Shown: in pieces, positions 60,094 to 64,000 of the stretch | Layout of the letters: the number at the start of each line of letters is the position of its first letter | Numbering within the stretch: position 1 is the stretch's first letter | Assembly: GCA_030673825.1 (NCBI GenBank) | Contig: JAUTCS010000118.1 | Location: 1 to 64,000 of the forward strand | DNA from: Verrucomicrobiota bacterium JB024 | GTDB taxonomy: Bacteria; Verrucomicrobiota; Verrucomicrobiia; Opitutales; Cerasicoccaceae | Direction of reading: 5' to 3' | Length of the DNA: 64,000 nucleotides | Translations under genes and position numbers: made by a program | Notes under the pieces: generated by a model | The model's database searches: none | Told to the model about the DNA's origin: nothing | What the model saw: the letters and a program-made list of their open reading frames with translations, nothing else

Positions 60094-60169
60094 TGGCAGG
60101 GGCAGAGGGACTCGAACCCCCGACCAATGGTTTAGAAAACCACTGCTCTATCCGCTGAGCTATGCCCCC
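60094..60169 (-). tRNA. tRNA-Arg (anticodon TCT)
   Basis: A 76-base cloverleaf with encoded CCA. The acceptor stem pairs GGGGGCA with TGCCCCT (one G-T pair); the D stem is GCTC/GAGC; the anticodon arm is GTGGT-TTTCTAA-ACCAT, reading TCT; the T arm is GGGGG-TTCGAGT-CCCTC. It would decode AGA codons, which are rare in the surrounding GC-rich genes. An integrase gene starts 92 bp beyond its 5' end. Confidence 0.95.
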
Positions 60170-60260: not shown

Positions 60261-61334
60261 ATGAGCAACCCCAAGAAAGCCAGGCAACCGGGCTTCCTGA
60301 AAGTGGGAGAGTGTCTATATCGCCATGAAACATCGGGCACTTACTATGCGCTGGTGAAGTCCAACGGCAAGCAAATCCGCCGCTCCCTCAAGACTCAGGA
60401 TTTACCCCTCGCCAAACGGCGCCTGCGCGAGTTTCGGGAAAAAATCGGACGCCTCGACCTCACCGACGGGAAGTCGAAGCTCCTCTTCCCCGAGCTGGCC
60501 GAAAAATGGCGTGCCACCCTCGCCCCGCACCTCAAGCCCAGTTCCACCCTTCGGCGCGATTCCAGCATCATACAGCTAAACCGTTTCTTCGGTCAGCAGC
60601 TCGCCCGCACCGTCACCCGCACCCTTTGCGAAGACTGGGCGCAGACACGCTCCCCGCAGATCGCCGCCTCCACCTTTAACAACGAACGCGACACCCTGAT
60701 CGCCATTTTCGAGTATGCCCGCCGTGAAGGCATCGTCTTGGACAATCCCGCCGAAGTCCTCCCCCGCCGCAAGCAGCCCAAGCCCGCCATCCTCATCCCC
60801 ACCCGCGAGCAATACGAGGGCCTATTGAAAACCATGCGCGGTATGGACATCCGCTACTGGGCAGCCGCCGATCTGGTCGAGCTACTCGCCACCTCCGGCA
60901 TGCGCAAAGGCGAAGCCAACGCCCTACACTGGGAAGACATCGACTGGAACCGGGGAGCCTTTACCGTGACTGGTGGCGAAGGCGGCACCAAGAACCACGA
61001 AGCCCGCATCGTCCCGCTTTTCCCCGCACTGGAAGCCTTCCTCCGTCGCAGGCTGGCCGAATACGGCGACACCCTACCCGCCCCCGAGTCTGTCATTGTC
61101 CCGGTCAAAGACGCGAAAAAAGCCCTCGAAACCGTCTGCCAGCACAACGGCTACCCGCACTTTACCCACCATTGCCTGCGACACTTCTTCGTCAGCAACG
61201 CCATTGAGAAGAATGTGGACTTCAAAACCATCGCCGCCTGGGTCGGCCACAAAGACGGCGGCGTCCTCGTCGCCAAAACCTACGGCCACCTCCGCGACAC
61301 TCATTCTTTTGAAATGGCCAAGCGGATGGCATGA
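60261..61334 (+). CDS. Tyrosine-type site-specific recombinase/integrase
   Basis: A 357-residue phage-type integrase. The N-terminal part (about residues 75-165) is a core-binding SAM-like domain; the catalytic part shows Arg in 'LLATSGMRKGEANALHW', His-x2-Arg in 'THHCLRHFFVSNAI', His in 'WVGHKDGG' and the nucleophile Tyr in 'AKTYGHLRDTH'. All catalytic residues seem present, so it may be active. It lies next to tRNA-Arg and before an AT-richer operon, as expected for an integrated element, although it is on the 5' side of the tRNA. Confidence 0.92.
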   Translation: MSNPKKARQPGFLKVGECLYRHETSGTYYALVKSNGKQIRRSLKTQDLPLAKRRLREFREKIGRLDLTDGKSKLLFPELAEKWRATLAPHLKPSSTLRRDSSIIQLNRFFGQQLARTVTRTLCEDWAQTRSPQIAASTFNNERDTLIAIFEYARREGIVLDNPAEVLPRRKQPKPAILIPTREQYEGLLKTMRGMDIRYWAAADLVELLATSGMRKGEANALHWEDIDWNRGAFTVTGGEGGTKNHEARIVPLFPALEAFLRRRLAEYGDTLPAPESVIVPVKDAKKALETVCQHNGYPHFTHHCLRHFFVSNAIEKNVDFKTIAAWVGHKDGGVLVAKTYGHLRDTHSFEMAKRMA

Positions 61335-61447: not shown

Positions 61448-62203
61448 TTAGCCCTTTGATTTTCGTAAAAACACTATTCCGACAAGCACAATTATTAACG
61501 CGCCCAATGCCCATATCCACCAATTGGTACTTATCGACTCTTCAATAATTTGCTCTGCATGTACAGGCGGTTTAGGCGCTGCACTCTCTACATCTCCTTG
61601 CTCTCTCTCTGTCGGAGCTTTTTCACCAGCTTGGGCTGTTTGCAGTTCCACCGATTCGACTCCATCTCCTTGTGTACCATGAGCGCGTAGATAATTTTCA
61701 AAGAACTTCGCCCTGGAAGGATTATCGGAGAACAAAAGTCTGGCCTTACCCGCCAGATTGAGCAATCCCGCAGAAGGATTGCTAGTTGTCCACATGTCAC
61801 GGTGCTTTTCGTCAGCTGGAAACAATGCCCATGTAAACTGTTGCTCGCTAATATGGTTAGAATCTCGATTGTCTATGCACTCAGTTATCAGCGAGATATA
61901 CTCCTTTGGCTCCAAAACCTGAGCTGCGGCAAAGAATATTGCTTTCTTCGTATCACTGCTTGCGATGTAATCAACCTCGGAGGCTAGCAATTTCCAATGT
62001 GCCTTGATCACTTGCTGGGCTTGCTGAAATGATGCATAGTCATTTAGGCCCTGTCGCATTTCAACAACGGCAACCGGATCGCGATATTTTTCCGGTATGG
62101 ACGCTTCTGTTGACTCAATATATGAGCGCAAAGCATCAACGTTAACGTCAACTGCCCCAAATGTAGAGCTAATCCCAAAGAATAAAAGAATAAGTATTTT
62201 CAT
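61448..62203 (-). CDS. Exported, membrane-anchored protein; candidate immunity protein
   Basis: A 251-residue protein with a signal peptide ('ILILLFFGISSTFGA', ending near residue 17), a helical periplasmic body of about 170 residues, an acidic/Pro-rich linker, and a C-terminal helix ('WWIWALGALIIVLVGIVFL') followed by basic residues. No family was recognised. Its ATG overlaps the stop of the upstream large protein gene by 4 bp. Because that protein ends in an amidase-like domain that would act on cell wall, an exported neighbour of this kind fits an immunity protein. Its base composition is more AT-rich than the genes left of 60 kb. Confidence 0.65.
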   Translation of the reverse strand: MKILILLFFGISSTFGAVDVNVDALRSYIESTEASIPEKYRDPVAVVEMRQGLNDYASFQQAQQVIKAHWKLLASEVDYIASSDTKKAIFFAAAQVLEPKEYISLITECIDNRDSNHISEQQFTWALFPADEKHRDMWTTSNPSAGLLNLAGKARLLFSDNPSRAKFFENYLRAHGTQGDGVESVELQTAQAGEKAPTEREQGDVESAAPKPPVHAEQIIEESISTNWWIWALGALIIVLVGIVFLRKSKG

Positions 62204-64000
62204 GGCTCGAATGCTCTTAGTCGTGATGTTCCGTCTCCAAATCTTGAATATTTTTTATTAACAGTTCCAGACACACCAGAACCAATCCCATCTCCGTCAT
62301 AGTCCGTAATGGCGGCGTGCCCAGCATCCCCTGGGTTGGGATGTGCGATTATCCAACCGGGCTGAAGGAAGGTTGCTGTTGATAATAGAGGCCAGCACTC
62401 AATGTATGTCGAGTCTTCAGAAGATTCGCCTGTGTCCTCAATTCCGGCCCATTCATTCGCTAGCGGGGGATACTCATTAAGGAAACCATTGATGGCGGGC
62501 ACACTTGCCCCAGCTTCGACGGCTCGGTGCGCAACAAAAATATTACATCGAATAACGGAATTACCAGATGCAGGATATTCAGGAAAGCCATATTGCTCAG
62601 GAACGATATTGTATCCCGCGTATACTTCGCTTCCGTAAAAGTTTTGGGCCCTCTTGCATATCTCCATCTGGATTGTTTTATCGCAAATCCCAATTGAATC
62701 GGGATCGCCTTTTTTTCCAAACCCATAAGCAAACCCATCAATCACTTCGTCTTCCAATCTTTCATAATCGACAATGACGTCAGTACCTATAACTGCCCTG
62801 ATCTGGTAAATCGCAGGGATAGCAAATGCATGCGAAAAACTCAATCCCGTAGCTCCTTCACCAATATCATGCCAGTCCGTATAACTGTCATCGTTTCTTC
62901 TCGCGCGATACTGCCATTTAATAAATCCATCCGCAGTGTCCACTACATCAAAAAACTGAGGCGCCAATGCTACATCAAGCATCTCCCCCTTCAATGCGAG
63001 ACCGCCATTTTCTCGTATTGAAGCACCATTTCGACGGACTTCAATTTGAGCAGGCAACAGCAGCACGATGCGCTCTTGCCCTGTCGTAGCGTTGGTCGAA
63101 GTGGCGGCGATCATACCATGAGAGTTCATTTTGATAATGCGTAAACCACCAATAGACTCATCACCAACGAGATCCTCAAGCCGATAGGGACCGTCAAAAG
63201 AATCTAAATAGCTTCCCGGATTATTGGGATCGGCAGTACGCATCCAGATGGCCTGCTCCATTCCAGCCAAATATCCCCAGATTATCCAATCTCCAGACTC
63301 CGATGAAGAAACATAGCGAAGAGAATATGCACTGGGGATGGTAATCGCGTTCTCGGAATCTCCATCTTTATACAAAACGCTTCCAGACAATACCGCGTTT
63401 TGATTGTTAACCGCTGCAATAGCTGAAGGGAAATCACCCTTCATGTAAATATGGTTTCCATCAGGACTCACTGCCTCGAAATGAGGCATGTCTGAGCTAT
63501 AGTAACTGTTATACGAATCACTATAATAGACAGTCTGAACTCCACTAGCATTCAATATTCTGAGAACTCCGTAGTACCCTGGATCATAAAACGCAGTTGT
63601 ATAAACGTTACCAGCTTCATCGTTAAAAGCATTACCAATGACATAAGCAGAGTCTCTATCTGCGGTCCATTGGTCCGGATAGTAATCGACACTCCAGGAT
63701 GTTCCGTCAAAGGCTGATATTTTTTGGCAATAATGAAAGTTATAGGTTTTTACATAGGGAAATTCTTCCCAAACTGGATCTAGCGTATTTGTGAGAATCA
63801 TTCCATTAACATCTAGCCCAACAACTTTCGGGGGATATCCAATAGTACGCGCGGTGCTATCCGTAAAGTACCCTAATTCCATGATTCGTCCATAAGTCGT
63901 ATATTCCACAATTCTTCCATATACAATGCCACCGGGAAAATCCACATCTGAAACATTTCCCCAATTCCATAGCTTAAGCGGAATATCCTGCGGATATACA
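62200..64000 (-). CDS. Large protein with C-terminal CHAP/NlpC-P60-like amidase domain (5' part outside window)
   Basis: The frame is open to the right edge, so at least 600 residues are encoded. The first 350 visible residues are rich in Tyr, Ser and Gly with repeated beta patterns, like a propeller or RHS-type exported region. The last 150 contain 'NSVIRCNIFVAHRAVEAGASVP' (Cys codon at 62545) and 'PGDAGHAAITDYDGDG' (His codon at 62317), the order and spacing of Cys/His peptidoglycan amidases found at the ends of bacterial toxins. A cell-wall target is inferred. The downstream overlapping gene may encode its immunity protein. AT-richer than the core genes. Confidence 0.7.
   Translation of the reverse strand, partial: VYPQDIPLKLWNWGNVSDVDFPGGIVYGRIVEYTTYGRIMELGYFTDSTARTIGYPPKVVGLDVNGMILTNTLDPVWEEFPYVKTYNFHYCQKISAFDGTSWSVDYYPDQWTADRDSAYVIGNAFNDEAGNVYTTAFYDPGYYGVLRILNASGVQTVYYSDSYNSYYSSDMPHFEAVSPDGNHIYMKGDFPSAIAAVNNQNAVLSGSVLYKDGDSENAITIPSAYSLRYVSSSESGDWIIWGYLAGMEQAIWMRTADPNNPGSYLDSFDGPYRLEDLVGDESIGGLRIIKMNSHGMIAATSTNATTGQERIVLLLPAQIEVRRNGASIRENGGLALKGEMLDVALAPQFFDVVDTADGFIKWQYRARRNDDSYTDWHDIGEGATGLSFSHAFAIPAIYQIRAVIGTDVIVDYERLEDEVIDGFAYGFGKKGDPDSIGICDKTIQMEICKRAQNFYGSEVYAGYNIVPEQYGFPEYPASGNSVIRCNIFVAHRAVEAGASVPAINGFLNEYPPLANEWAGIEDTGESSEDSTYIECWPLLSTATFLQPGWIIAHPNPGDAGHAAITDYDGDGIGSGVSGTVNKKYSRFGDGTSRLRAFEP

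Follow-up and report, generated by a model that had tools for sequence, protein, structure and literature searches.

A locus at the right-hand end of the analysed DNA of Verrucomicrobiota bacterium JB024 (the window, bases 1-64000 of the 107,410-bp contig C118, which is part of the 4.6-Mb assembly G000) can with good, if not full, confidence be considered a polymorphic toxin-immunity module residing on an integrative element, in which a secreted, putative CHAP-like hydrolase, P0001, would be blocked by an exported partner, P0002. Independent comparative evidence supports the assignment of the two proteins as a putative toxin and its immunity protein in an acquired element, as a preliminary description of the window had proposed. 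The partner gene adjoins the toxin gene across related loci, divergence rises from the N-terminus of the toxin to the partner, some toxins are broken beside intact partners, partners occur in tandem, the genes leading the operon are shared with other toxins, and a pair of the same families is found in genome G255.

The reading frame of P0001, interrupted by the window edge, was completed by reading contig C118 beyond position 64000; the gene ends at contig position 64251 and encodes 683 aa with a signal-peptide-like start. The 4-bp overlap of the 251-aa open reading frame (ORF; 61448-62203) with this larger one (62200 to beyond 64000), both on the minus strand, was confirmed, and the motifs 'IRCNIFV' and 'GHAAITDYDGDG' are both present in the larger protein as described earlier. 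P0001 is composed of a signal peptide, about 360 residues with no assigned domain, an immunoglobulin (Ig)-like domain and a C-terminal Cys/His domain. It is the third of four co-directional genes in the order P0004, P0003, P0001, P0002, and signal-peptide-like N-terminal segments are present on all four proteins; the operon described earlier as a pair thus stands as far as the pair is concerned, but it is not the pair alone, since two more secreted genes lie upstream, outside the window. In line with the lower GC content noted for the pair, GC is 44-47% across the P0001 gene versus 57-66% for most flanking genes. The coordinates of the locus are collected in Table 1.

Table 1. Features of the P0001-P0002 locus and of the element carrying it (positions without a prefix are those of the window; AF2, AlphaFold2)
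Feature	Position	Strand	Remarks
P0001, predicted toxin gene, complete	C118:62200-64251	minus	683 aa; 3' 1801 bp (62200..64000) inside window
Ig-like + catalytic module, residues 385-683	62203..63099	minus	conserved in at least 25 related loci; AF2 model
Predicted catalytic Cys569, KCN/RCN motif	62545..62547	minus	alignment; start of predicted helix
Predicted catalytic His645, GH..I.DYDG	62317..62319	minus	invariant in alignment; start of predicted strand
P0002, partner gene	61448..62203	minus	251 aa; ORF; ATGA overlap with toxin stop
P0003	C118:64264-65430	co-directional with P0001	388 aa; outside window
P0004	C118:65446-66291	co-directional with P0001	281 aa; outside window
tRNA-Arg (TCT), attachment site	60094..60169	minus	
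38-bp direct repeat = 5' half of tRNA-Arg	left copy 60132..60169; right copy C118:72042-72079		exact; right copy outside window
Tyrosine recombinase (integrase)	60261..61334	plus	Pfam Phage_integrase PF00589, 5.5e-18
AbrB/MazE-like + PIN-domain genes	C118:66915-67759		4-bp overlap; outside window
Rolling-circle type replication protein	C118:69145-70224		REP_ORF2-G2P, 4.3e-10; beside HTH_17 protein; outside window
441-aa protein	C118:70336-71661		~39% GC; no accepted family match; outside window

Relatives of the C-terminal domain were sought by sequence and by profile in 388 genomes of the phylum and in a GTDB contig set, and were found only for residues ~385-683 of P0001. The catalytic module occurs in 11 of the 388 genomes by sequence and in 14 by profile, while the contig set contains 21 loci with the domain, nearly all of them under the labels Verrucomicrobia, Kiritimatiellae, Opitutales or Akkermansia; two labels stand out (Flavobacteriales, Clostridia) and belong to contigs of metagenome-assembled genomes, 4.5 and 9.2 kb in length. 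Altogether, profile searches detect the domain in no fewer than 25 loci, with few exceptions from Verrucomicrobiota/Kiritimatiellota, and these counts are lower bounds, because the contig set was scanned with a single peptide pattern. No relatives were found in IMG/VR, phage or plasmid records. In an alignment of 22 sequences the invariant or nearly invariant residues include those of (K/R)CN.FV, PP..W, PG and GH..I.DYDG; the His and DYDG are invariant and the Cys is conserved in at least 90% of the relatives. Judged by this alignment, the predicted catalytic Cys and His of P0001 are not chance occurrences.

The AF2 model of the Ig-like and catalytic module (predicted local distance difference test, pLDDT, 87.8) consists of the Ig-like domain followed by a mixed domain, in which Cys569 stands at the N-terminus of a helix (DSSP helix 184-195) and His645 opens a strand (261-265, both in domain-model numbering). 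A Cys at a helix start followed by a His at a strand start is the order known from CHAP, a family made up mostly of cell-wall amidases and endopeptidases. Over the Cys-to-His stretch, Pfam CHAP (PF05257) was matched by the relative from G255 (E 6.6e-5), by L043 (0.0033) and by L048 (0.018); the best score, 23.8 bits for the G255 relative, is to be set against the Pfam cut-off of 26, and no scanned member lies above it. The P0001 domain is called CHAP-like because that relative, located in a VgrG island of a type VI secretion system (T6SS), matches the family, and at the sequence level a CHAP-like or papain-like catalytic fold is supported. A search for CHAP within the order gave one hit. CHAP was the only meaningful family match, reached through relatives, and no match of the toxin domain to NlpC/P60 was found; a search of PDB sequences with the domain profile gave no match either. 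A single match in the fold search to the N-terminal domain of a Bacteroides T6SS effector (9jdh, rank 22) was not used as evidence.

P0002 has an N-terminal hydrophobic signal (Kyte-Doolittle, KD, 2.59) and a single C-terminal transmembrane (TM) segment at residue 228 (KD 2.56). In its AF2 model (pLDDT 80) an all-helical periplasmic body is followed by a disordered linker and a TM helix at 228-250, so that hydropathy and model agree with the signal peptide, periplasmic body and membrane anchor ascribed to the protein at the outset. It was also rightly described as belonging to no recognised family, as it matched nothing in Pfam, NCBIfam or PDB, and no PDB fold match fell below E 0.3. A strongly hydrophobic N-terminus is present in all 26 partner-type proteins examined, those of tandem arrays included, versus 34% of the 242 other ORFs of the same loci, and a C-terminal TM segment was found by a simple hydropathy cut in eight partners, P0002 among them. 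P0002 is 36% identical to the partner of L036 (1e-30) and 27% identical to that of L033 (2e-23). Profile comparison joined these three to L035, L037, L038, L043 and L051 (99.6%), and the enlarged group in turn to L039 (98%), to the Kiritimatiellae group (94%) and to L025 of Akkermansia (83%), while the Opitutales partners are linked to the Akkermansia group at 97.5%. In L035 the gene after the partner (L035:1669-2547) encodes another small Cys/His protein, which has TM segments and whose motif order suggests a further amidase-like enzyme. In L041 the gene after the toxin (L041:6711-7571) encodes a protein in which a portion of the N-terminal region of that toxin is repeated, and similar copies lie further downstream.

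The two genes are closely tied. In 24 of the 25 loci with enough sequence the start codon of the partner lies within -16 to +22 nt of the stop codon of the toxin, and in the 388 genomes all partner-profile matches at E<=1e-5 adjoin a toxin domain or its remnant. A weaker match (G221:C1:1301286, E 6.6e-4) corresponds to an exported-type protein of 337 aa, perhaps an orphan partner, near which no match to the toxin domain was found; matches in G029 and in G293 C2/C92 were weak, spanned only the linker and TM segment, and were discarded. Toxin and partner diversify together and rapidly. Between the two copies of G149 the identity falls from 94% in the N-terminus through 70% in the Ig-like domain and 50% in the catalytic part to 28% for the partner, and for a pair from Akkermansia the corresponding values are 82, 82, 56 and 38%. 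Intact partners accompany a frameshifted toxin with DYDG changed to DYGG in G221, a toxin of which only the last 71 aa remain in frame in G033, and a toxin core with the Cys lost in G216, whereas two or three successive partner-like genes are present in L053 and L026. Among the traits by which polymorphic toxins are recognised, a variable C-terminus behind a conserved N-terminal or leader part, a partner immediately downstream, partner arrays or retained partners, and an export signal are found here. The distribution is sporadic: 14 of the 388 genomes carry the module, and it is absent from the three genomes of the same genus that were sampled.

One relative occurs in a different delivery context. 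G255 has a T6SS (VipB, 1.1e-131), while ten other genomes tested gave no VipB match, and its catalytic domain (profile, 8.9e-19) is part of a 318-aa protein with no signal, encoded near VgrG and DUF4123 genes. Its partner belongs to the same family as P0002 (3.6e-9), and the partner gene overlaps the toxin gene by 4 bp.

The leader genes connect P0001 with other toxins. P0003 contains two TSP3 repeats and a weak Big_1 match in Pfam, and P0004, with homologues in 15 of the 388 genomes, ends in a recurrent 'KDTxIxFxP'-like motif. In the congener G128 homologues of P0004 (78%) and P0003 (35%) lie ahead of an RHS protein of 2074 aa (RHS_repeat, 1.3e-76), and leader homologues followed by RHS proteins were also found in a further case in G128 and in G211, G048, G320 and G085. 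In another congener, G164, a P0003 homologue (54% over 355 aa) is fused to a protein of 1319 aa that has an HEVGH motif at its C-terminus; the next gene encodes an exported protein with a TM anchor that, apart from the TM tail, is unrelated to P0002. G048 and G066 likewise have HExxH-type proteins beside exported proteins that are anchored by a TM segment. From these sister loci it follows that the leader genes stay constant while the toxin end and its protector change. P0004 and P0003 might even form a dedicated export or display route for RHS, metallopeptidase-type and CHAP-like toxins in Verrucomicrobiota without a T6SS, several of them paired with exported immunity proteins; such a route would be undescribed, and the suggestion is a tentative one. 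P0001 itself contains no RHS repeats in a Pfam scan, and none were found in the whole genome assembly; it has no Pfam match to the TPS secretion domain or filamentous haemagglutinin repeats of CdiA, and no CdiB-like gene is present among the scanned element proteins. It is thus neither CdiA-like nor itself an RHS protein.

The locus is acquired, as supposed. The neighbouring tyrosine recombinase and tRNA gene noted earlier were identified as an integrase and tRNA-Arg(TCT), and an exact 38-bp repeat of the 5' half of the tRNA lies 11.9 kb away, which makes the locus an integrative element; an integrase and a tRNA-derived direct repeat at both ends are the features by which tRNA-borne elements of this kind are recognised. 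Apart from the integrase and the four-gene operon, the cargo includes the AbrB/MazE-PIN pair, a 282-aa unknown protein, an HTH_17 protein, the Rep protein and the 441-aa unknown protein. GC content is 39-55% over much of the element, whereas most of the sequence on the transketolase side has 60-66%. As the repeat corresponds to the 5' half of the tRNA, the element lies on its promoter side and must supply or carry the tRNA promoter. In the congener G229 the same tRNA is occupied by a closely related integrase, split in two frames (L121:8234-9304), with different cargo and no toxin operon, and in G128 by a related integrase in the form of a remnant; a clean empty site in these relatives was thereby ruled out.

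The proposed mechanism starts from the toxin-partner pair as cargo of this element. P0001 would be exported by Sec and, after leaving the producer and being delivered to other cells, its C-terminal CHAP-like papain-fold domain (Cys569/His645) would attack the envelope of competitors as a toxic hydrolase, most likely by amidase or endopeptidase activity on peptidoglycan. P0002, also exported and with its C-terminal helix as an anchor in the inner membrane, would bind the toxin domain directly in the periplasm and block it, and is thus the probable protector of the toxin producer, and by the same action would protect its kin. A target in the periplasm is compatible with partners that are exported and anchored in the membrane.

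Several observations weigh against this mechanism. Export of the toxin by its producer would in itself already call for an exported partner, which weakens the argument from the partner to a periplasmic target. No secretion route beyond Sec was identified for P0001, and VipB is absent from its genome, T6SS linkage being found only for the G255 relative, whose partner has no apparent signal peptide and hence is a poor fit for a target in the periplasm. For P0001 itself Pfam gave no match, so that its link to CHAP comes through relatives. In the fold search with the Ig-like and catalytic model the Ig-like domain took all top hits, and because of this dominance no CHAP or NlpC structure was retrieved; the amidase-like Cys/His domain of the preliminary description is accordingly upheld at the level of CHAP/papain-like sequence but not by structure search. 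Among the partners, those of Opitutales show no significant link to the group of P0002 (about 1% probability), and the neighbour gene in L041 is unrelated to the partner family. In the one locus in which the partner is not complete, L034 of G293, it starts with a 4-bp overlap, ends after 61 aa (67% identical to that of L033) and stands beside a toxin with no evident N-terminus.

The signal-less partner of G255 also lends some weight to a related, rather unlikely explanation, in which the pair is still one of toxin and immunity, while the Cys/His domain would be a papain-like protease or deamidase directed at a protein, perhaps a cytosolic one, rather than at peptidoglycan, and the partner would do no more than guard the producer's own periplasm during secretion. 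The only meaningful similarity, however, is to CHAP, mostly cell-wall enzymes, and the N-terminal hydrophobic segment present in all 26 partners examined, several of them with a C-terminal TM segment, also speaks against this explanation. CHAP/papain-like folds are not confined to peptidoglycan, and an interbacterial Cys protease toxin reported to target GyrB and ParE provides a precedent (PMC12136450).

It is improbable that the pair serves housekeeping or development, with P0001 as a cell-wall enzyme and P0002 as its membrane-bound regulator or anchor. The two genes are co-conserved, both proteins are exported and CHAP-like enzymes also work in normal wall turnover, but the sporadic occurrence, the location on a mobile element, the decay of toxins to pseudogenes, the arrays of partners, the rise of divergence from N- to C-terminus, and the leader genes in common with RHS and metallopeptidase-type toxins are hardly those of such an enzyme. 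A lysin of a phage or of the element, for release or entry, with P0002 as an inhibitor or spanin-like companion, is scarcely credible: CHAP-like domains are common in endolysins and the module sits on an integrative element, yet the viral, phage and plasmid records hold no relatives, the element encodes an integrase and a Rep protein of the rolling-circle type, with no virion-family match among the proteins examined, and most relatives do not lie beside phage genes.

A polymorphic toxin-immunity module thus remains the favoured reading, and its architecture is of a class already known. Sec-dependent polymorphic toxins, including some with wall-cutting domains of the NlpC/P60 clade and a Verrucomicrobial RHS toxin, were described by Zhang et al. 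(2012, PMC3482391). With the Sec/type II secretion system-type toxins carrying RHS stalks (PMC3482391), P0001 shares a large exported protein, a C-terminal toxin domain, an adjacent immunity gene and a conserved leader behind which C-terminal modules are swapped, and the sister loci with the same leaders are RHS loci. It differs from them in having no RHS repeats, in being preceded by the two extra secreted leaders P0004 and P0003, and in a toxin domain and immunity family for which the searched profile libraries gave no match. Similarly, the toxins of the NlpC/P60 clade, such as Haliangium Hoch_2166 (PMC3482391), end in a papain-like Cys/His domain and are predicted to degrade the wall of target cells, whereas the P0001 family matches CHAP only, through relatives. 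From CHAP (PF05257), the order and spacing of Cys and His are retained, although the family cut-off is reached by no scanned member. In the Tae/Tai type, T6SS peptidoglycan amidase effectors are accompanied by periplasmic immunity proteins. T6SS effector-immunity pairs have been reported from Serratia (PMC3533786). Pairs of the Tae/Tai type resemble P0001-P0002 in the Cys/His amidase-like effector and the adjacent, exported cognate immunity protein, and the G255 relative lies in a VgrG-DUF4123 island; unlike them, P0001 is large, Sec-exported and encoded in a genome without VipB, and P0002 is an all-helical type I membrane protein with no known homologues.

Some further features of the element are worth mentioning. 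The AbrB/MazE-like and PIN-domain genes are likely a type II toxin-antitoxin pair, and a near-identical PIN gene is present in the sibling element of G229 (L121:10440-10862). The N-terminus of the 441-aa protein (GIALAADSAVT) recalls proteasome-type Ntn hydrolases. The integrase gene lies divergently just upstream of tRNA-Arg. PADLOC gave weak HTH (mad1) and Csm2 matches only, which were not taken as defence systems.

No description of this toxin-partner pair was found in the open-access literature, nor was any described antagonism system of this kind for the phylum of the gut symbiont Akkermansia, and the pair apparently represents an undescribed toxin-immunity family in that phylum. One toxin domain is found in two delivery contexts, with a Sec/RHS-type leader and with a T6SS. 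Judging from the relatives in Akkermansia and other genomes, the pair diversifies, breaks and switches its delivery system as weapons of bacterial competition do. Specific proteins can now be named as candidates to test, and the leader genes P0004 and P0003 could explain how Verrucomicrobiota without a T6SS deploy toxins.
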